Assembly: GCA_963924555.1 (NCBI GenBank)
Contig: OZ004581.1
Location: forward strand, 3,968,001-4,032,000
Length of the DNA: 64,000 nt
Origin: Crambe crambe
Lineage: Eukaryota; Porifera; Demospongiae; Poecilosclerida; Crambeidae
Direction of reading: 5' to 3'
The position numbers were made by a program, and so were the translations under genes. Position 1 is the stretch's first letter. Every line of letters begins with the position of its first letter. This document shows positions 18,447 through 56,074 of the stretch, piece after piece. Below the pieces are notes generated by a model, which was not told the origin of the DNA, did not search any database, and was given only the letters and a program-made list of their open reading frames with translations.

Positions 18447-18850
18447 ATGCCTCTTTCTTGTATCCAAGAGTGGCGGGCTCGTACTGGCTCCTGCTGGTGT
18501 GTTCTTGGCCGACCTGCTAAATGTAGGTCTCCCTTTCGTGGAAAGGAGAGTCAGCCATCTCAAACCTCATCTTTCACTACCTTTTTCCTGATACTACTTT
18601 CAGCAATGAATTTTGGGATGATATTGGATCTCATAAATGCAACTTGCCATCTTCTGAATTGGAGTAAGTACAGTTTATTGAAAAATGTGATGATATTGCC
18701 ACAAGGAATAATTACCTACACTAGTATAATTGTACATGCATCTTTACATAGGTGTGAATACGTTGATATTGTTGGTCACATGACTTGTGACCAATTTAGA
18801 TCCTCTGAAAAATGTGCTTTAAATAACACTTCTCAGTGTTTATGTTGAAG
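18447..18850 (+). CDS. Candidate 5' exon of the main gene (Cys-containing, hydrophobic segment)
   Basis: An acceptor-like ATATTCTAG is followed at once by ATG and 133 open codons. The N-terminal part is Arg- and Cys-rich. A hydrophobic stretch (FTTFFLILLSAMNFGMILDL) lies near residues 47-66, and a Cys-containing end (CDQFRSSEKCALNNTSQCLC) follows. The frame ends in TGA (18846-18848), only two bases before a donor AG|GTACAT. Spliced to 19737 the phase is right apart from that TGA. Either the exon is a separate short protein, the TGA is a disabling change, or another donor is used. A fragment of this exon is copied at 32296-32409, which argues that it was a real transcribed exon. Confidence 0.4.
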
Positions 18851-19792: not shown

Positions 19793-22700
19793 GTGAGTCA
19801 GAAGCTAATTTCTAAAGGTGAGACTCATGACAGCTAATGCAATTAATGTGACTTCACTTTCTGTAATACAGTAAAGAGTACTTGCAAGTCATCTCATCAA
19901 ATATCGTGGTATTATCAAGAAGCGTTTGAATATCAAACAAGCCAGATATTTCCATTGAACTACACAGTGAAGACTGTACACATAAAAGTAGCTACAGCTG
20001 TGGTTTCTGTAGCATTCATTGCTGCCAGCATCATCTTCTATCTACTATTGCTCTCTGGGGATGTGGAATTGAACCCTGGGCCAGCCATTTTCTCTGGTAA
20101 GGACTATAGTTAAATTCTTGAATTGTATATGCATGAGATAGCTACTATTTCCTTTTGTAGTTTCATTCTTCCTTTGCTTCATCGGGATGACTTCTGTCCA
20201 CCTAGTGCATGCACTACCAGTCATTCGTCAAGAGATGAGTGACAACAGCACTACAGGAGAAGGTGCAACTAGGTGCACTACAGGCGAAGGTACAACTGAT
20301 ACCACATCCCCCTCTGGTACATGGTATAATAATATATAACATTATGCAAATAATTGTAATGTTAACTCAGGTAATTCTGATAGTGACAAATCCGGAATTG
20401 TAATTGGTGTCCTTGGAATATTAACTGGCTTAATTGGAGCCGTCCTCAACTGTTGCTTCACTATGTGGAAACATTGCCATCTACCAGGTATAACACTAAC
20501 AGGATAATTAATTTACTTGTGCATGGTGATGTTTCTTAGGGTCAAAAGGCTATCTTATATTATACAGCAATCTGACTTGTCAGGGTATACGAGTTAATTA
20601 AGTACTATAACTATATTATGTAGCAATAATTATTATTATGATAATGCCTACAAATTTTCAGCTAGAAGTTGTGATACAAGCCATCCTGCATGCCTATACC
20701 CCAGTAGATTGAACCCTGCATAGTGCTGTGAAAGGAATATCGTACTACATTGGCTTGTCACAGAACCCAGTATCCAAAAACCATTTGTAGGTAGGCAATT
20801 GATTCTTATTTCCAATAAACCCTCCGTCCTTAGATAGCACCCTTTCTGCACTGAGATGCTACAGCTCAGGACCCATGGGATTCTAAACACCATAGATCCC
20901 TTTTGGTTTCAGAGCCTGTACAGATATCCTAGGAAACTTGCAGGAAGTCATTATAAAATCATGTCCATTCTGGTGTCTTTACTGTTTTTTCCTCCTTAGT
21001 GCATCTCAAAATTGAACCTAATGGTACCAATGTCATTGGAAAAGATTACTCTCTAACATGTACTCCCATGACTGATATTCCTGGGGACGAATTTGAATTT
21101 TCTTGGGACTATAACAAAGTTCCTACTAATGAAAACATTGACTCCAGTGATACAAAGAGCAAACTATCATTCAAACGTTTGAATAGTTCTCATAGAGGAG
21201 AGTACACTTGTAAATGTTCACTAAAGCAGAGACGTGGATGCTGTTTAAAGAAATTGCTTCCAAACGTAGACAGTTTGATATCATACCACTTGGATGTAAC
21301 TGGTAAGCACCACCATGCACCTATCATAGAGTGCCATGTTGTGAAAATAACGTCATTTAACCTTACTTCCAGACCCTATCATTTCAGCCACTATCAAGGA
21401 TGACGAGTATCCAATAGTTGGAAAAAGTTATAAACTGGAATGCACTATAACTGGAGCAAAAGGTTTCACTCCTGAGTATCAATGGATGCGTGATGAAGTT
21501 AATATTCAAGGAAAGACAACTCGTTCACTCTCCTTTGATTGCCTCAAATTCTATGATAGAGGACGCTATAAGTGTAGAGTCACCATTGAGTCTAATCTCC
21601 TCACTGAACCGCTCTCTGACACAAGTAATCCTATGGATATACAACCAAGTGGTATGTTAGAATTACCATATTTATATATAAGAGAGTCCTTATTGTATGT
21701 TGCTATTATTAAACAGTGAGAGATTAATAATGTTAAAAATAATAGTGGCCGCACTCAAAGCCTCTTGTATCACGTGTGCAAACATGTGGCCTGCTATAGG
21801 CTGAAGCCTGTGGCCATTCCTTAGATAGATAAGGGTTGTTGGGGATCTTGAGCTAGTTTTGACCGGCCCAAACCCAACTGAGTCAGAGAAGTAAAAGTAT
21901 TTTAAATTTTATCTCCAACTGAAATGACCGCCTTGTGGCTTTCTTTTTATAGCCAGGCATAAATGTGGGTGTGTGCATGATGAATATCATAAGCACACAA
22001 ATAACCACATAATCAGCAAAAGTGTTAATTGTACTCAATGTCCTTGAGGAGAGTCTCCAACATCTCCCCCTCCTTTTTGTGGCGGTAGCCACTGTAGCTG
22101 AGGTGTGTCTGTCCTTTCCACGCTCCAATCTTGCCTGCTCAATGCATCTGCATTTGAATTAGCTGACCCTTGTTTGTATCTGATTTCAAAATCGAAATGT
22201 TGCAAGGCCAAAACCCATCTCATTACTTTTGGTCCTGCCTTCGTTAGTTGTCTCCAGTAAGTGAGTGCCTTGTGGTCGGTCACCACAACAAACTTGGCTC
22301 CCAACAGGTACAACGCAAAGTGGAGCACTCCCTCCACCATGGCCAATGCTTCCAACTCAGTTATAGCATAGTTGGCTTCTCTTGGGAGCAACTTTCTGTT
22401 CCAATAAGCAATGGGATGAAGTCCATCCTCCCACTCTTGTGCCAATACAGCCCCTAGTCCAACACCGCTGGCGTCTGTAGCCAGAACAAACTGCTTGGTG
22501 AAGTCTGGAGCCTTCAAAACTGGTTGTGCCACCAGTACCTCTTTGATTTTCTCAAAGGCCTTCTCTCTTGGTCTGGTCCAGTTAATCTTGTCCGGTGATT
22601 CCTTTCTTGTGGCATCTGTCAATGGAGCAACTATGGTTGCCTGATTGGGAATGAATCTTCTGTAGAAATTGACTAGTCCCAAAAATGCCCTCGTACTCTT

Positions 22701-25700
22701 CTTCGTCACTGGCCTGACATATTGCTGAACTGCCTTAATTTTTGCCTCTTGAACTGACATCTTGCCATTTCCCACTCTATATCCCAGAAAATTTAGAGTA
22801 ACTCCTCCAAAGTGACACTTCTTCAATTTGATTTTGAATCCATGTTTGGCCAATGCTTGCAGAGTAAGTTCCAGGACTTTCAAATGCTCTTCCCAAGTCT
22901 GGGTATAAACCACGACATCATCTATGTACGCTCTTGCTCCATGCACTCCTGCCAATACTGTGTCCATTACTTTCTGGAAATGTGCAGGTGCATTCTTTAA
23001 TCCGAAGGGAAGTCTTGAGTATTCCCATTTCCCATGAGGTGTAACGAAAGCAGTTTTGTGTTGATCTTCTTTCGCCACAGGAATTTGTAGAAAACCTTTT
23101 GCAAGGTCCATAGTTGTAATGAATTGTGCTCCTGCCACCTCTTGTAATACTTCTTCCATCCTTGGTAGCGGATAAACCACCGTCTCTGTAATGGCATTTA
23201 GAGCCTTGTAATCTGTACAGGGCCTCACTGACCCATCTGGTTTTGGCACTGGTACTATAGGTGAACTCCAAGGGCTGCTTGATGTGGCTGTAATGCCTAA
23301 CTTCTCCAGACTTGCAGTCTCCTCCTTGACCTTGTCCACCCAATGATATGCCAGTCTTCTAGGATACTGTGCAACTGGCCGTGCCTCTCCAGTCTTGATT
23401 GTGAACGGTTCCACTTGGGCTAAGCCTGGTACCTCAGAAAAACTTGTCCTGTATTTCTTCAGTAACTGCAGAAGTTCTACCTTCTGATCCTGCTGTAGGG
23501 TGTCCATTCCCTTTGCTTCTGCGAGTTCCTGATCTGTAGTTCCTTCTTCTGCTGTCAGGTGAGTCCAATATTCCAGTTGTGCTAGGTCCAATTCATCCTC
23601 ATCTGGTGCTGCTGTTATCACTGTATTCATGTCCACATGGAGCGTGAACCGCTTGAGAAAATTTCTGTGCCTAACAATAGGCTTTCCTCGTCCTGGTGAT
23701 TCAATGAGGTAAGTGAGGTCCCCTACCTTCCTCAACACCTTGCATGGCCCCTCCCACTTGGCTGTGAGACCTTCTGTTCCCATAGGGCTCATGTATAACA
23801 CTTGTTCTCCTTCACTCAGGGGGTCCTCCCTGGTAGATCGGTCATAATAAATCTTTGACTTGTCCTTGCTCTTGCTGTCCGCCGCCTTCACCACCTCCAT
23901 GGTCTCCCACATCTTGGTGACCATCTCTGTGACATAGGTGATGATATCCTTGGGAGCTGCCTTCTTCTGAATCATCTTCTCTCTTAGCGCAGTGACTGGT
24001 GTCCTGGCCTCTCTCCCAAACAAGAGCTGGAAAGGTGAAAATCCCGTAGATCTGTGAGGTGCACACCTGATGGCCATCAAAACTTCAGGTATCCAAATGT
24101 CCCATTGAGAGTCTCCCTCTCTTTCTTTCTCCAAAACAGTTTTCAGGACAAAGTGCACTCTCTCCACCATACCATTGCTTTGAGGGTGGTAGGGTGATGC
24201 TTTCACGTGAGTAATCCCATTCTCTTGCAACATTTGTTCAGTCACTCTTGCAATAAAGTTTCCTCCGTTGTCAGAGAGAAGTCTCTTTGGATATCCAAAC
24301 CGTGCAAAGCACTCTTTCAGTTTTTGGCAAGTTGTAGCTGCATCAGCTTTTTTCATAGGCAACGCTTCCAAGTATCTGGTAGCAAAGTCCTGTATCGTCA
24401 GGAGATACCTGTTCCCTTTCTTTGTTCTTGGTAAAGGGCCTACTACATCAGTAGCCAGCCACCATCTCCCGGTCCCATGGGGTTGAGATGACAGGTAAGG
24501 GTTGTAGTGGTGCCTTCTGTGTCTTCTTGGAGTTCCAGGTGAGACACTTGCTACATGTCTTTATGTGGTTCACAATGTCCTTTGACATTCCAGGCCAGTG
24601 GAACTCTGCCTGAATCAGCTGAGTTGTCTTCTTTTTACCAAAATGGCCCGCAAGATCATGTCCTGCTCTTAGCACGGTGCTTCTCCATTTCTCTGGTACC
24701 ACAATCCTGGCTTGCTCCCTTGGGTATGTGGGTGGCACAAACATCAGCACTCCTTCCCTCATGAAATATGGCGAATCTTCCTCCTGTGTTTTCTCCAGTA
24801 GAGTTAGCAGATCGGAATCTTCCTTCTGATCTTGGATGAGAGAGTCTTTGTCTAATGTATCTGATCCTTGCACATTCTCCCACACACTGTGAAGTTCAGC
24901 AGGCTGAGATTCCTGAGGATGGCTCACAGCACTCACATTCTTCTTGGCCTTCCTTAGACTTGTTGGCATAACTTGGTCCCTTTCTGTGTCCTCTTGATCC
25001 TGCTTCAGGAGCTCCACACGTTTGCCAGGCTTGAATTGGTAGCTCTAGACAGGCTGTTGAAGGCTTTTCCAGAGTACCGCTGCCACCATTTGTTGGGGAT
25101 CTTGAGCTAGTTTTGACCGGCCCAAACCCAACTGAGTCAGAGAAGTAAAAGTATTTTAAATTTTATCTCCAACTGAAATGACTGCCTTGTGGCTTTCTTT
25201 TTATAGCCAGGCATAAATGTGGGTGTGTGCATGATGAATATCATTAGCACACAAATAACCACATAATCAGCAAAAGTGTTAATTGTACTCAATGTCCTTG
25301 AGGAGAGTCTCCAACAAGGGTATAGGGGTATCTGAGTTAAAAATAACAGGCGGACATCAGTCATTTTCCGAGCAATTATCAGATTTGACCGATCAATTCA
25401 CAGTTTGCACTGCCACAATGTCCTAACAACAGTTTTAGACTAAAATGATCCTTGAACAAACTTCTAACCAAGCTTTGGAACTTAGACTAAAGTAGAAAGG
25501 CTTCAAATGAAGTGCTAAAGCTAGCTAGTCAGCCATGAAAGCTTCGTGCATCCAGCTGCTGCAATCACCAGAACTAAGGTAGGCTTTCCAGCTTATGCAC
25601 TTGGAAATATGAACTAACTAAGCTATCTACACTACCTTCAGTACCTTGTTACTCTTATCTAGGCTCCTAGAGTCAGGAGGTGAGAAACTAACTTCTAGTT

Positions 25701-28700: not shown

Positions 28701-31700
28701 CTCATTCTTCAAACACTGGTCTCTGAAACACTGGTTTACTGAACACACAATGGTGCAGTACATCAAAGAAATCATCATTCCCTATGTAGTATCTCAACGA
28801 GATAGAGAGACAATACATGTGCTTTAATGGATAACTTTAGCAGCACAATCAACAATCTTCCTGAATGAAGCCCATAACAGCCATGTATGCTTACTTCCAG
28901 CATTTACTCCAACCTCCCGCAAAATACTTTTTAAAATGAAAGTTTGAAATGTGGTATTTTGAGGACATTACCAAACAAATTCACAGAAAGGATATTAACT
29001 CAGTGGAGTTGCAACAAGTCAAATTGTGTCCAGCCTCATCAAAAGAGTTAAATGCAAAATGGTTGGTGGAAATGGCAGAATACATCCCAGAAGACAACCC
29101 TCAGTTCATTGTGAATGGATGTATATATATACATGCTGGAATTTGTAGAGCACATGATGGCTATAGAGATGCTGAGGAAGAGTCTGAAGACAAATTAGAA
29201 AATGAGAATCTGATAATGAATCTGATGAGGATTATTTTTTCCAGCAATGAGAGTGACTGCATGCTAATAGATTATTACACTGCTTTAGCTTGACCTTTGC
29301 TTTGAACAACAGGCCACACGGAATCTCTAGGCCTCCTTGAGGTAAATCTGCTGAGTGCCTTCTCCCTCCAGTTACTGTGCAGCATATGGATCCTCTTCTT
29401 AAGCTTAGAAAGAGTGAAGCAATCTTTGAAATCTTTCTTGGAAGATGTCCAATAATAGTAATAGCAACAGTGTACCTATCGCTAGAGTTTTCAGGTTCTC
29501 TTCTGCAAGAAAATTGTAGTCCACATGCATACCATTATTTTGATACACATGATAGCCTCTGATGCACCGCAGTACTTCCAAATCTTCCATAGTTGAACCA
29601 GCTAGCTAGCTAGCTAGCTATGGCACGTTAGTCGTCATGTGCACATTATGTGCTATTTTTTATTTTTAAATTATCTTGCGGTTTGGCCAGAGTGTGTGTG
29701 TGTGAATTAATTTTTCAATATGATTTTTAAACATGAATATTACAGTATACATACTGACCATGCAAACATCTATTTTCTATACTTTCAGAGCCAAGCATTT
29801 CTGCCACTCTTAAGGATACTACTATGTGTCCGACATTGGGAAAGGAGTACTCACTGGAGTGCACAATAACTGGAACAGGCTGCCTCTTTGATTATCATGA
29901 TACGACCTATAATATAACATGGTACAAGGATGGAACAAAGTTACTCTCAGATACAGATTGTCTTCAATTATTGAATGATAAATCTGCTAAGTGCAAATTT
30001 GAATCCCTCAAATACTCTCATAGGGGACGCTACACATGTGAAGTCACCATTACATGTGGTCTAGTAGGAGCAGAACCCCTCAAAACCACAAGTAACCATG
30101 TGGATGTTCGACTAAATGGTATGTTAGTTTTATAATCCCGTTTGCTGTATATTTATGCCTATAATTATGGCTATTACTCAGTTAATGTGTGTTTACTGAC
30201 AAGGTTTCATACGGAGGGGGAAAGGGGGGAGATCCCCTTAAATTGAAATTTCCCCCCTAAACCAATTACTGAATGTGTCTTTACAATCTCTATATAGCAC
30301 ATTTTTTCCTCACACAAGCACACACACCTTCATGCACTCTATCCAAAATTCCTATATGAAACCCTGACTGACAATTGGCGATATGAAAAGCTGCACCCAT
30401 GGATACTATACACTCTAAATAATAGTTTGTCATAAGATATGTGTAACTCCTGTATTGTAATAGTGTGACTGTGAGGAATTTTATGAAACCATAAATTAAA
30501 AAAAACAGTCATTATGACGAGGATTTACGCATGTATGTGACAGTCCCAGTACTTCCAAATCTTCCATAGTTGAACCGGCTAGCTAGCTAGCTAGCTATGG
30601 CATGTTTGTCATCATGTGCACATTATGTGCTATTTTTTATTTCTAAATTATCTTGCATTTTGGCCAGAGTGTGTGTGTGAATTAATTTTTCAATATGATT
30701 TTTAAACATGAATATTACAGTATACATACTGACCATGCAAACATCTATTTTCTATACTTTCAGAGCCAAGCATTTCTGCCACTCTTAAGGATACTACTAT
30801 GTGTCCGACATTGGGAAAGGAGCACTCACTGGAGTGCACAATAACTGGAACAGGCTGCCACTTTGATTATCATGATACGACCTATAATATAACATGGTAC
30901 AAGGATGGAACAAAGTTACTCCCAGATACAGATTGTCTTCAATTATTGAATGATAAATCTGCTAAGTGCAAATTTGAATCCCTCAAATACTCTCATAGGG
31001 GACGCTACACATGTGAAGTCACCATTACATGTGGTCTAGTAGGAGCAGAACCCCTCAAAACCACAAGTAACCATGTGGATGTTCAACTAAATGGTATGTT
31101 AGTTTTATAATCCCGTTTGCTGTATATTTATGTCTATAATTATAGCTATTACTCAGTTAATGTGTGTTTACTGACAAGGTTTCATACAGCGGAGGAGGAA
31201 AGGGGGGATCCCCTTAAAATGAAAATTTCCCCCCTAAACCAATTACTGAATGTGTCTTTACAATCTCTATACAGCACATTTTTTCCTCACACAAGCACAC
31301 ACACCTTCATGCACTCTATCCAAATTCCGGTATGAAACCCTGAATGACAATTGGCAACAGCATGAAAAGCTGCATCCATGGATACTATACAACTCTAAGT
31401 AATTGCAGCGAGCGAGCTGACTCTCAGGTTGTGACTCATTGAAATTGTAGATTATTGGCGAGCGAGCGAAGCCCCACACTAATTGATGAAAATGATATTT
31501 ATATGTATGTATGTACACATACATCAATTAAAATGTGCATGCGCATGAAATAGCTACTAAGCAACGTTGGGCTAATAACTTTCATGCAATCATTTTCGTT
31601 GAACTTGAAGTAGAAACGAGTATTATGGAACCCAAAGAACCAGAAAAGAAGCGAAGGAGGGCCCCAGAACACCCTGACGAGCAAAGAAGAGCGAAACTTG

Positions 31701-34700
31701 ATGAAAGCTCATAATAATGAGAGACTAGCCTTGGAGCAATTGAGGGTTGTATGGAATGAAAGACTATCAACAGAGTCTACTGAGCAGCAAACTGCCAGAC
31801 TGGAGAAACTAAGGGCCCGACAGAATGAGAAACTTGATGCAGAGTCTGCTGAACAACGAGCTGCCAGACTTGAGCAAGTTAATGCATACCGGGATAAAGC
31901 CTTCATACAGCTTCAAGTCACAACTAGCTTTATGTACCCAATTCCTCCCTGCTTTCTTTCTTGGATAAGATTTGTATACGAGTCAGGCGTCTCTACCCAC
32001 TCCTTGAATAACATGGGAGCTGGCATCACTGCGAATCCTCCTCCTTTTGGACGGTTGAACCTCGGTATTGCAAATAAAGCATCTCTCCATATACTTGCAC
32101 GAACTAGCTACAGTTGCATGAACTGTCTAGCACGAACTAGCTACAGTACCAGTACATCTAGCCATAGATATATGTGATCTAGCTGGCTGAATTGCACTGC
32201 GCACACGCGCATACGTCACCATCGAATTTGCAAATCGTATACTACACTTTGTGCATCATCAAATCACATGAAAACACAGGAAATAGAATTTGAATCCCTG
32301 CTAAATGTAGGTCTCCCTTTCGTGGGAAGGCAGAGAGTCAGCCATCTCAAACCTCATCTTTCACTACCTTTTTCCTGATACTACTTTCAGCAATGAATTT
32401 TGGGATGATCAGATTCATTTCGGCTCATGCAATATTGTGATGAAACCTCCAATGAACTACATAGCTACAATATTATGAACTTTAACTTGAATTGCAGGAT
32501 CACCCCTTACCTATCACCAATATTACCAAACTATGAGCTACTTCACTCCTGGGGGTGAAGTAGGAATAGTTAGTTTGATGATATTGGCAAGGGTATACTT
32601 GACTGAAGTTCACTCTCTTGTTGCTGAATTTTTTTTTTTTTTGAACCACACACAGCCATCCCTTCTTTTCTTTTTCCTTTACTTGTTGCAATTGTTTCTG
32701 ATGGGATTTTGATGTTGTGTGATAGATCAAAGCTTGTGGAATTTAGTGGCCATGTTGAATTAGGAAGGCATTGGGCATATGTGGCTTACTGGATAGAAGG
32801 AAATAAAAGGCAACAATATCTAAGAGCAATCATACAGTGACAAAAAAATTTTTTTCAATTGAAGAACTCTTTATGGTATCCACAGGAAATACCTATAGAA
32901 TTAAGGATCGGCAAGGTTGGAGATCCATGGGGTGGATGATAAGAGTGACTCTCTCACCGGAGATTCGCCTGTGCAACCTATCTCCAAAGGGAAAACGAAC
33001 TATTTGCCACCCTAAATTTATATTTCTACCTGAGTGGCATATTGCTCATTCTTCAAACACTGGTCTCTGAAACACTTGTTCACTGAACACACAATGATGC
33101 ACTACATCAAAGAAATCACTATTCCCTATGTGGAATCTCAACAAGATAGAGACAATGCGTCTGCTTTAATGGATAACTTTAAGACAGCACAATCTTCCTG
33201 AAGTCTATAACATCCATGTATGCTTACTTCCAGCCAACACTACTACTGCCAACCAATGGATATAGCCTGCAAAAGACTTTTTAAGGTGGCAGGGGAGTGT
33301 TTAATCATGAATAATTCATGAGTTAACGAGGCAGGTAGTTGCACAGGCTATGAGATGAAAAATATAGTTTCATACTGACTACAGTGGATATTTCTCAGTG
33401 TTGACTTTGAGATCTGAAAGTGTCAGAGGTTTTAAGGGGTGTAATCTATGCACACCTACGTACTGTACATTGCATGGAAGACAGTGAAGACTATTTCAGG
33501 GAGTCCATGATAAAATTGAGCAATTCCATAGCATTTTGCTTGAAAATGATGCTACGTATTAGCCTTCACTGAAGAACAGTAGCATAATGGTTTTATTAGG
33601 ACTGGAGCTGGAAAATGATAATTGCTCTTTATTGTAGTTATGATGGAATGAGAACAAACCATGATAACAAAGCCTCCGGTGCTCCTGGATTTTCCGTCAT
33701 TATTTGGCAAACTTAACTTGACATGTGATGTAGTTCCTACTCTACAACTGAGGGCAACAAACCAGACACTCGAGAACATTACCATTGCAGAGAAGCTCAA
33801 CCACTAGGCAGCCATACCTCGATCGATTTTTTTTTCACGTCAATTTTCTCGAACTGCAGCCATGTGCTGACAGTATGTTGTACTTATTCTTATTATATGA
33901 ACTAGTGGGCAGGGCAACTTGAAGAGATTTTGAAAAGAAGCCACTGTAGGTGAGAGCTATGGCCCATTGATCGCTCGATCAAAAGATCAAAATTCAAGAG
34001 TGTTGGCTATTCTTAGTAGTCTCGCAAGCCAGCCCACTTATTTGAAAATAAGGGTCTGGTCAAACTCGCATGGTCTGGTTTTTCTGAGTGTCCATATTTT
34101 TCTGGACAGATGTACGTAACGCATCATTTCGTAATGGGGTGTGGTTTTGTGATATCATACAGAAGCACACAAAAACAGTCACAGCTTCTATTTGCTTTTC
34201 ATTCATACTGCTGTAGCCCAACAATTCAACACTCTCCAAGATAGCCCTTTTTAAAGCCATAATCTTCTGTGAGCAACATTCCATGCACAATTATTCATAA
34301 TGACGTCATTACGTGCACGACGTCATATTGAGGATCCGGCTGGCCAGTACTGCTGACTGTGCAGAACAACTCGACCATGTGAGTTAGACCAGACCCTCAT
34401 CTTTCAACCACCCCACGAAAAAAATAGAAAGTGCTAGTCAATATGAAACTAGTTTTCAACTGCAGCATCTCATAACTCATGAATTATTCATGAGCAAACA
34501 CTTCCCTGCCAACTTAAATGAAAGTTTTGAAATGTGGTATTTCAAAGAAGATACCAAGCATATTCATAGAAAGGACATTAACTTGGTGGAGTTGCAGCAA
34601 ATCAAATTGTGTCTGGCCTCATTGAAAAAAGGATATGGCAGAACAGTTCATTGTGAATGGATTTAGACATGCTGGAATTTGCAGGCTATAGAGATGCTGA

Positions 34701-36336: not shown

Positions 36337-39300
36337 GGAGAACGACGACGTACTTACTGTCCTATACCATAGTATACTATTTTACTGTCATGGTATCACA
36401 TTTTGCATTTTCCAGAACCAAAACTCAAAGCTACTTTATATCTTCATCCAAATGATGATGACCTAGTTCTGGGAAAAGATTATGAACTGCAATGCAAGCC
36501 TGAATTGGATATTCCAGGAATGTATATTAGTCGTTTCAGACTTGATTGTACCTGTGATTGGCACAAAGAAGGAGAACTCACAGACATTAAAGAAGAAAGT
36601 TTTAGCTTGGAATCTTTCAAATTTTCTGATGCTGGACGCTATGCTTGTACAGTTACTGTTAAATCTGATCTTCTTGATAGTCCCCTTGAGTTAACAGAAG
36701 AAATAGATGTGAAACCAAGACTAGGTAAGACACTATAGTAAGTTATGTTCTGTCCAATCAAAGGAATGCATTGTGTAAAGCAAGAATTTGTGCCAATTTA
36801 TAAATAATGAGGGATATTTGATGGTTGAGTCTGATGTAAACATCCCGAAGGCATAGGCATAAGTAATTTAGACTCTATATATAGCTGTCAAGAACTGAGC
36901 AATCTGACTAGTCAGAGCAGATGATGTAAATCACATATTAGCCTCTGGACCTTGGATAAATCTTAGATCTGATCAGATTAGATGTTGTATTAGCATAATG
37001 GGTGCATGTGAGCTGTTTCCAATCCTGTGTACGTAGTCTAATTATCTAAGGATAAATTGTATCTATTGGGGGGGGGGGGGGGGGGAGGGGGGGAGGGGGG
37101 AGAGGCAGGAGATCCCTCAGAATTCCTGATCCTGAGTCCTGGTGCTTCTATGCTCAGTAATTACCAAATCTATATTCCAATTACTGCAGCGAAAAAATGC
37201 CAGGAAGAAATGAAGAAGATGTATGAAGAGATGCAGTTTGATCCCATTGATGAACAGTGGACGATGGATCATGTTATCAAACTTTCACTTGAGAATCAGG
37301 AAGGTAAGGAAAAACCTGGAGCTGGAAATGAAGGGACTCTAGAAGTTTCAAAGATTTACGAATCCTCTGAACACATCAGAGTAATTAAGGGGAAACCTGG
37401 AGCTGGAAAAACTACACTTATGAGAAAAATTAGTAATGACTGGTCACTTGGAAAGATCGAAGAGTTTTCAGAAAAGATACTCGTTCTGGTTATAATCAGA
37501 GATCTTCGTCAAAACTACAGTGTAGAAAACATCATAAATCAATCATGCTCATCGTTGAGCAGCGGAAAGCGTAAATACCTTCTTCAATGTCTTGACAGTG
37601 GTCAAGGAGAGGATTTTGTGTTTTTATTGGATGGATTAGATGAATATCAAGACAAAGTTTCCAATGCACCATACATTGAAAATATTCTAAGTGAGAAGAT
37701 GTTAAAGAAAGCCACAATTATTGCTACATCCAGATACTCTGCCTACTTACTCAAAAAAATTATCAGAAATAATGCCTGCTATTTTGAAATCAAAGGTTTT
37801 CTTGAAGATGAAGTATTTGATTACTTTAAAGAACGTTTTAAGGAGGATAATGACAAATGTAGTGAAGTGAAAAGATATCTAACAGAAAATCCTAACATGG
37901 TGAGGTTATGCTATATACCCTTACACTGTGCTATTATGGCAAATATATTTGAAGAACATAAAAAAAAAGTTCAAACTAAGACGGAAACACAGTTTTTCGA
38001 GATGCATACAAGATATAGAATTGTCCGATCAGTACATAGACAGGGTGATAGTAATTTTCAACCACTAACACTTGATGAACTTGAGGGTAAAAACAAAGAA
38101 CTATTTGATTATATTTGCAAGTTAGCATACCATGCAACAATGGAAAATACACAAAGTTTAGATGAGAAGGATCTAAAGAGGCTCAAACTTAAGCGTGATA
38201 ATTTCCGTTCAGATCAGGCTAATATAAATGGAGGCCAAAACATGCTAGGGTTACTTGTTATCACCCCCGATAAACCACGAGGTTTACTTATCAACAAATA
38301 CAGTTTTACTCATCTCGCTGTTCAAGAATTCTGTGCAGCGTTTCACATTGCTAAACTGCCACAGCAAAGTATAACTGAGATCATCAAGGATGAGAAACGC
38401 CGTAATCGCCTCAATTCTGTGTGGAAGTTTATTTGTGGACTACTAGACTTCACTAACAACTCTAATGGTGCATTGCAAGCATTTCATAATTTAATGGAAA
38501 AATATACAAATGAAGGAGAAAAATTGCTTTTCAAGATTCAGTGTGCCCATGAGACTCAGGAACAAGAGCCATGTATAGTCCTTTATAAATCCCTCAAAGA
38601 AATGAAGATTTCGAGCATGACACCACCAGAACTTTCACTTTTCATGGATACGATGAAAATATTAGGGAGTGCGAACACCGAACTTCCAGATCTTGAATGT
38701 ATCGGGTGAGTGTCATTGATATGGCTGGTATGTACAGCAAGCATAATCATATAGTACAATGCGGTTTTATTATGCTCTAGCCAAATCACAGCTGTAAGGT
38801 CATAGGGCAGTTGTAAATAAATCAAGTAGTGAAATTTTTTCAGAAAGTGTAAATAGCAGTGCATGCACAGAAGTACTTAATTTAGCAACAATTCTTCCAG
38901 TGTTTACCATGGTTCTACTCCATTTATATAGTGTACTAATTACATGATATGTAAACATCCTTTCAAGTTTGTAGTGAAGATGAGATTTACTCTCCATATC
39001 CCTACACAGCCTTTATTTCAACCAGATTGAAGATGAAGGAGCCAAGGTTCTCTCTGGAGCCTTGAGGAAGATGCCCAACCTTCAGGTTTTAGAGTAAGTT
39101 GACCTATGTACAGCTAACTACAACAGCACTCGTGTCCAACTTACACTGATTAATATTCATGTTGCTGATACAATATAACAAGTAAGCTAGTTACATGTGA
39201 GCTGTAACTACATGAGGGAAAAAACATTGAAAAAAAATCATAGGGATGACCATTGTTCAAAAAAAGTAAGCAAACAAGGGTAGAGGGATGAAGGGGGGAT

Positions 39301-55714: not shown

Positions 55715-56044
55715 TTAGGAACATAGAGCAGCTGCATGGGGAGGGTTCACATGCTTTTGTATATCTAAAGGCGTAAGAACCCCCAAAAAGGTAACATGAT
55801 GATGCTGCATTTTTTTTCCAATAATATTATTAGCTATTACTTTCTTTGTCATGGAGTTTAGATGGATGGTTATAAAACCACCTGCAGTGATACTTACTTC
55901 TGACGGACCAGAGTTCTCCTCCACATCCATAGCAATGTGCAGCTGCATGATCAGGTATCCAGCACACTCCTTCACCACCCTCCTCCAAACAGTCCCAGTC
56001 CCCAAAGCTAGATGGAGACTACATACGTACATATATAAGTGCAT
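55715..56044 (-). pseudogene. Minus-strand exon-like ORF with a degenerate 2A motif
   Basis: The frame reads AGYLIMQLHIAMDVEENSGP, then SE, followed immediately by a strong donor, GTAAGT, on the minus strand. D-V-E-E-N-S-G-P (55904-55927) matches the 2A consensus at every position except the first Pro of NPGP, which is Ser. The motif precedes a splice donor closely, as in the main gene. The upstream segment is only moderately hydrophobic. This could be a decayed 2A signal exon of a minus-strand relative, or coincidence. Confidence 0.35.
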
Positions 56045-56074
56045 TTGATAGAGAAGCGATCAGAAGAGATACTT

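Follow-up and report, generated by a model that had tools for sequence, protein, structure and literature searches.

Six-frame translation of the 64-kb window, by which is meant the whole stretch of Crambe crambe DNA analysed here, yields the peptide NPGP only once, within DVELNPGP (Table 1), which raises the question of whether a cellular sponge gene uses a virus-style skip in translation and, if so, what the skip would separate. The initial annotation had described this site as matching the 2A consensus in full, which proved correct, as DVELNPGP fits the octapeptide pattern (D/G/C/N)(V/I)ExNPGP; from base composition, 0.00002 DVExNPGP sites would be expected in the window and 0.04 genome-wide. 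The upstream context of a 2A element (about 6 to 30 residues) is also suitable by sequence, as LLLLSG directly precedes the core. Passages of a survey that covers close to 10,000 viral 2A sites (PMC12846837) use this hexapeptide to name one class, report that motif 6, which resembles the LLLLSG class, is active in reticulocyte lysate, and describe cryo-EM data in which Leu side chains, together with the core Asp, bind the exit tunnel. The viral StopGo/2A elements with LLLLSG-like hexapeptides treated in these passages thus share with the site both the hexapeptide class and the octapeptide consensus, but they lie in polyproteins, unlike the cellular gene of the window, and the same passages call cellular use of 2A rare. 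Judged from sequence and context, skipping at the Gly-Pro bond is likely, and the exon probably carries a functional 2A/StopGo element that would close a small leader peptide ahead of a membrane NLR-type receptor.

Table 1 Features of the putative receptor gene, with positions counted from the first letter of the window
Feature	Position	Strand	Description
Candidate first exon E0	18447..18663	+	72 codons with ATG; hydrophobic run TFFLILLSAMNFGMILDLI; GTAAGT donor in phase 1, fitting E1
Exon E1 (2A exon)	19872..20096	+	phase 1 at both ends; frame open in 9/9 copies
Hydrophobic helix H1, VATAVVSVAFIAASIIFYLLLL	19988..20053	+	by hydropathy; zero amino-acid changes among 9 copies
2A/StopGo core DVELNPGP	20060..20083	+	LLLLSG (20042-20059) directly before
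Exon E2, signal-peptide-like VSFFLCFIGMTSVHLVHA and Ser/Thr-rich stretch	20161..20316	+	one N-glycosylation sequon; in 9/9 copies
Exon E3 with transmembrane run IVIGVLGILTGLIGAVLNC followed by WKHCH	20371..20487	+	Kyte-Doolittle 2.33
Ig-like exon 1	21000..21302	+	Pfam Ig_3, E 4.3e-7
Ig-like exon 2	21373..21651	+	Pfam Ig_3, E 2.9e-7
Ig-like exon 3a	29789..30118	+	Pfam Ig_3, E 1e-7
Ig-like exon 3b	30764..31093	+	DNA 98.8% identical to 3a
Ig-like exon 4	36416..36724	+	weak Pfam Ig_3, E 0.0015, below cut-off
NACHT exon	37150..38706	+	Pfam NACHT, E 1.8e-18, above cut-off; exact start and splice to the Ig part presumed
LRR-like exon LYFNQIEDEGAKVLSGALRKMPNLQVL	39010..39093	+	by eye; LRR_6 E 0.017, below cut-off

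The motif closes exon E1, whose reading frame is KSTCKSSHQISWYYQEAFEYQTSQIFPLNYTVKTVHIKVATAVVSVAFIAASIIFYLLLLSGDVELNPGPAIFS. The exon borders proposed earlier were borne out (AG|19872 ... 20096|GTAAGG, then TTTTGTAG|20161 ... 20316|GTACAT), and the spliced frame reads ...FIAASIIFYLLLLSGDVELNPGP-AIFS-VSFFLCFIGMTSVHLVHA..., so that the second hydrophobic run begins four residues past the Pro, in agreement with the claim that a second signal-like segment follows within four residues. The Kyte-Doolittle mean over 19 residues is 2.69 directly before the Gly-Pro bond, which corresponds to the helix ending in LLLLSG that had been noted there (H1), and 2.01 directly after it. The unskipped product had been pictured as a chain with two spans; runs do lie on either side of Gly-Pro, but further ones are present in E0 (1.98) and E3, and the unskipped chain need therefore not be merely double-spanning.

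As E1 contains no Met, E0 or some other exon further upstream is required for its translation. The gene belongs to a family of nine copies, and E0, which would contribute its hydrophobic run and one sequon (NAT), is located upstream of the 2A exon in seven of them, where ATG and donor are unchanged and one copy has a 3-base in-frame insertion. It is absent within the 10 kb read upstream in the two other copies (L031 and L035), both of which use a GC donor after the 2A exon and may have another first exon. The possibility that E0 is a dispersed repeat was rejected, seven of its eight genome occurrences being upstream of these genes and the eighth being a part copy (window 32297-32409).

From E1 through the Ig exons the introns are of phase 1 with GT-AG borders, and the joined frame of the window copy runs for 682 codons without a stop; its NACHT exon is open for 519. 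Immediately ahead of the NACHT frame the copies are of unequal length, and the start of the NACHT exon differs in frame between copies. The Ig and NACHT exons presumably belong to one transcript, with the NACHT and LRR exons joined to the leader/Ig gene, and on its exon content the gene would be of a membrane NLR type with Ig exons ahead of NACHT. The 98.8% DNA identity of Ig exons 3a and 3b suggests that an exon was recently duplicated within the receptor gene. A Ty3/gypsy-type pol (reverse transcriptase, RNase H, integrase) occupies 22035-25044 on the minus strand, in the intron that follows Ig exon 2.

A pattern search of the genome finds the same 2A sequence nine times, always on the + strand of one contig at 3.55-3.99 Mb, with the window copy being the last. 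A protein search with E1 gives the identical nine loci as its only close matches and shows that the count of intact motifs (9/9 tandem copies) does not rest on the motif search. The E1 acceptor is kept in all nine, and the donor is GT in seven and GC in two. The order of 2A, signal-peptide, transmembrane and Ig exons is the same in 9/9 copies, NACHT follows downstream in eight (the 10 kb read for the ninth, L045/L046, did not reach one), and leader, Ig and NACHT are ordered on one strand in every copy read far enough. In-frame stops occur in Ig exon 4 of two of the nine copies (L037/L038 and L043/L044) and also in NACHT of L037/L038, with the 2A exons of both intact.

Within the 33 codons from KVATAVV to NPGP, which comprise the helix and the 2A core, six codons vary among the nine copies and all six changes are silent (pS 0.091, pN 0 over all pairs of copies); the chance of six silent transitions out of six is 0.0027. 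The Ig and NACHT exons have 60 silent versus 381 amino-acid-changing variable codons (Fisher p 8.5e-6 against helix and 2A), and the N-terminal 31 codons of E1 itself have 2 silent and 12 changing ones (p 7e-4), these p-values being only a guide since codons are not independent across related copies. The pN/pS ratio is 0.43 for E0, 0.47 for E2, 1.08 for E3, 0.97 for NACHT, and 1.19, 0.93, 1.47 and 1.56 for four of the Ig exons, the latter taken from the best match per copy, so that neighbouring Ig exons may be mixed. Silent-only variation in the one segment, set against mostly changing variation in Ig and NACHT, makes translation of, and selection on, the 2A segment very probable, and in this family the skip segment is under stronger selection than the receptor itself. 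The ratios near or above 1 in the Ig and NACHT exons could reflect decay as well as diversification.

If the genes as a whole were decaying, the 2A exon might be a fossil, a reading to which the stops in two copies and the NACHT ratio would lend themselves; it is nevertheless very unlikely given a pN of 0 beside a pS of 0.09 in helix and 2A and the long open frames of the window copy (E1 to Ig exon 4, and NACHT). Also unlikely is a plain transmembrane anchor, in which H1 would span the membrane and LLLLSGDVELNPGP would be conserved for membrane or protein contacts with no skipping at all; in its favour, the strict conservation extends over the entire helix and not over the 2A part alone. This conservation, however, halts exactly at Gly-Pro: the residues directly after the Pro vary again at positions 1 (A/T) and 4 (S/F), a limit expected of a skip element but not of a simple anchor in the membrane. 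Moreover, dissimilar leaders elsewhere in the genome have only the LLxLxG-DVExNPGP end in common.

The motif might also be a relic of a transposable element, since 2A-like sequences are mentioned in non-LTR retrotransposons in passages of PMC4981915 and the Ty3/gypsy-type pol lies in the same gene. That pol is intronic, on the opposite strand and of a different element class, and downstream of the motif no + strand frame of a non-LTR-type 2A element (endonuclease and reverse transcriptase) was found among ORFs of at least 75 codons, and all nine close matches of the exon fall within one tandem gene array. A transposon origin of the window copy and its family is thus barely conceivable and was rejected on the ORF list, Pfam and the nine copies in one array; some of the other 158 genome sites could be transposon-derived.

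In the favoured reading, a skip that separates leader from receptor, translation of E0, the skip with its efficiency, and the topology are inferred. The leader, a small peptide that could be membrane-bound or secreted, would consist of a hydrophobic or signal-bearing N-terminal part and helix H1. Once LLLLSGDVELNPG has been made, the nascent chain in the exit tunnel would block formation of the Gly-Pro bond, the leader would be released and translation would continue from the Pro, giving a leader product ending in ...LLLLSGDVELNPG and a receptor product beginning with PAIFSVSFFLCFIGMTSVHLVHA. The receptor would thus start with its own, cleavable-looking signal peptide (AIFSVSFFLCFIGMTSVHLVHA) and be targeted to the ER, followed by a short Ser/Thr-rich part with one sequon, a single membrane pass in E3 and then WKHCH, leaving the Ig, NACHT and LRR parts presumably in the cytosol. 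A receptor with a fresh signal peptide after the skip site is what the initial annotation had foreseen, and the signal-like exon E2 is indeed present in 9/9 copies.

Where skipping fails, leader and receptor would remain one chain. Fused with E0, this chain would have four hydrophobic segments and NACHT would still be cytosolic; fused without E0, it would have three and NACHT would face the lumen. A cytosolic N side of H1 is favoured by the positive charges ahead of it (VKTVHIK), in keeping with the count without E0 and not with that including E0. With Gly in the P site, H1 is 9-27 residues from the catalytic centre and the E0 run 79-97 residues away, and the exit tunnel holds 30-40 residues according to passages of PMC2978324. 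Lying inside the tunnel, with the E0 run outside, H1 would at the moment of skipping not yet be in contact with the targeting machinery, and ER targeting of the leader would thus come from E0 or take place after release, as for tail-anchored proteins. According to the same passages, 2A can be inhibited when certain upstream sequences are translocated; next to a leader directed to the ER, skipping may thus be inefficient.

It is reasonable to compare this arrangement with the NLR genes of the sea urchin, whose 2A leaders have been published, which means that the kind is already known. In the SpNLR2A described in passages of Roulston et al. 2016 (PMC4981915), as presumably in the window, a 2A consensus and a hydrophobic, signal-like stretch occur together near the N terminus of NLR genes, in many copies of an expanded family; in the sea urchin the unskipped product enters the exocytic pathway and the skipped one stays in the cytoplasm. 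In those passages the 26-residue 2A leader of SpNLR2A serves as both signal and N terminus, whereas the Crambe 2A follows a candidate upstream exon and precedes a fresh signal peptide, a transmembrane exon and Ig exons before NACHT. A dual-function signal of the sea-urchin style, in which partial skipping would mainly relocate a share of the receptor and would not make two working products, is a possible but doubtful alternative. PMC4981915 reports that sea-urchin NLR 2A leaders work in this way in HeLa cells and that recoding in vitro is about 80%, H1 is hydrophobic enough for a signal anchor, and Lytechinus NLRs bear 2A leaders of the same short kind. In all nine copies, however, a signal-like exon of the receptor's own lies beyond the Gly-Pro bond; a receptor released by skipping would therefore still be directed into the ER, and loss of the leader would leave it neither cytoplasmic nor without a signal, unlike in the sea urchin. 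The earlier comparison with invertebrate NLRs and their dual targeting is thus supported in part: the full 2A consensus with its fitting upstream context beside signal-like segments and the NLR-type gene agree with it, and the segment is under purifying selection, but the receptor would keep a fresh signal peptide and a candidate first exon would add another hydrophobic segment to the leader.

The similarity search with NACHT brought up two Lytechinus NLRs with an N-terminal NPGP among the 120 proteins listed. Both have, as is presumed for the window gene, an N-terminal 2A leader (MANMLLLRSGDVEPNPGP in P0052; P0081 in addition has Pfam Death and NACHT), but the leader is short and no second signal peptide is present in the part printed. 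Ig together with NACHT was recognised by Pfam in six of the 120 (P0020, P0026, P0029, P0030, P0032 and P0075), which are 25-40% identical to the window gene over the matched part and have no NPGP. Sponge NLRs described in passages of PMC12909245 likewise include expanded NACHT genes and membrane-bound forms, and these passages mention neither a 2A nor an Ig-NACHT form. No relatives of the leader in other species were found in the protein database at E 0.01 with model residues 1-300, nor any with a composite Death-ankyrin query, but candidates must share exact words and fit a length range, so their absence is weak evidence.

The 2A core is not confined to this family: the genome pattern search gives 167 DVExNPGP sites (72 + 95) and the reversed pattern 0. 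Forty-three of these sites were read (30 search loci, twelve short stretches and one more), and in every one the motif is preceded by a short hydrophobic Leu/Ile-rich hexapeptide ending in G, namely LLILAG in 12, LLLLSG and ILLLSG in 9 each, and nine rarer forms. Further upstream, the leaders belong by eye to at least five dissimilar types; one type has 81 genome matches, 80 of them reaching the NPGP end of the query, and another has 39, six with an internal stop. A phase-1 donor is located 1-13 bases past the Pro codon in 12 of 14 leader exons and was not found by pattern in the other two. For leaders of the VVTSLLLILAG type (11 copies) pN/pS is 0.23 across 83 codons and falls to 0.16 in the final 33, and for two other types (3 and 2 copies) it is 1.15 and 0.91, values that are unreliable owing to the ungapped alignment.

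Stretches of about 6 kb downstream of six such leaders contain Death, ankyrin or NACHT on the same strand in four cases: Death at L047 (E 5.3e-5), ankyrin (E 7e-55) with a Death-like piece at L048, NACHT at L049 (E 4.7e-22), and Death (E 7.6e-5) with an ankyrin-like frame at L051; none of the three was recognised over that distance at L050 and L052. The Death-like pieces of L048 and L049 match no Pfam family and that of L048 no solved structure, although a 46-residue stretch of the latter is similar to the Death domain of L047. A single open frame at L065 comprises a signal-like start led by Met, 85 residues, the 2A and a Death domain, and an early hydrophobic run like that of L065 also occurs in several other leaders.

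Co-location was counted for 149 leader places, excluding the window family and rows without the 2A part. Of these places, 6 have one of the NACHT domains listed (at least 103) downstream on the same strand within 15 kb, 2 have one upstream and 0 have one on the other strand, and within 20 kb the numbers are 6, 4 and 0. For the Death domains listed (at least 150) the corresponding numbers are 4, 0 and 0 within 2 kb and 7, 8 and 1 within 20 kb, so that proximity exceeds the upstream control within 2 kb only. Genome-wide co-location among the domains listed is therefore weak evidence for a general rule and partly evidence against it. The NACHT matches over the cut-off, at least 103 with 103 of 232 candidates scored, form dense clusters on C21, C9, C10, C1 and C16 of the genome assembly (G000).

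One could tentatively propose, with rather more doubt than confidence, a general design in which well over 100 genes use interchangeable phase-1 2A exons and each messenger would give a small signal-bearing leader and an intracellular or membrane receptor (Death, Death-ankyrin, NACHT or Ig-NACHT) in a fixed ratio, with the skip additionally setting receptor orientation in the window family. There, if the leader supplied H1 only, the Ig part of the fused chain would be preceded by three membrane segments and NACHT would lie in the lumen, and the skipped receptor would have two segments and a cytosolic NACHT. No report of this gene family was found in the 2A literature (sponge, NLR, sea urchin, cellular use); the combination of a 2A exon with a new signal peptide and an anchor, the Ig-NACHT receptor, and interchangeable 2A exons before several immune families may thus be undescribed there, unless the eukaryotic 2A survey of Rao 2025 holds them. 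The genome, whose gene clusters contain 167 perfect DVExNPGP sites, offers a natural system for asking why cells use a virus-style skip, be it for pairing a leader with a receptor, splitting targeting or setting topology, and the natural differences among the tandem copies make its purpose testable.

Two observations concern leaders beginning with WRRVV. In C13 of G000 (2953171-2954437, minus strand) four matches to the 2A end of this leader lie within 1.3 kb, each with a TGA, and three of them are spaced by 231 bases, forming a tandem array of leader ends. In the window itself, an open frame at 55715-56059 on the minus strand reads WRRVV...DVEENSGP, a WRRVV-like leader by eye with a changed core, which is perhaps a decayed copy.
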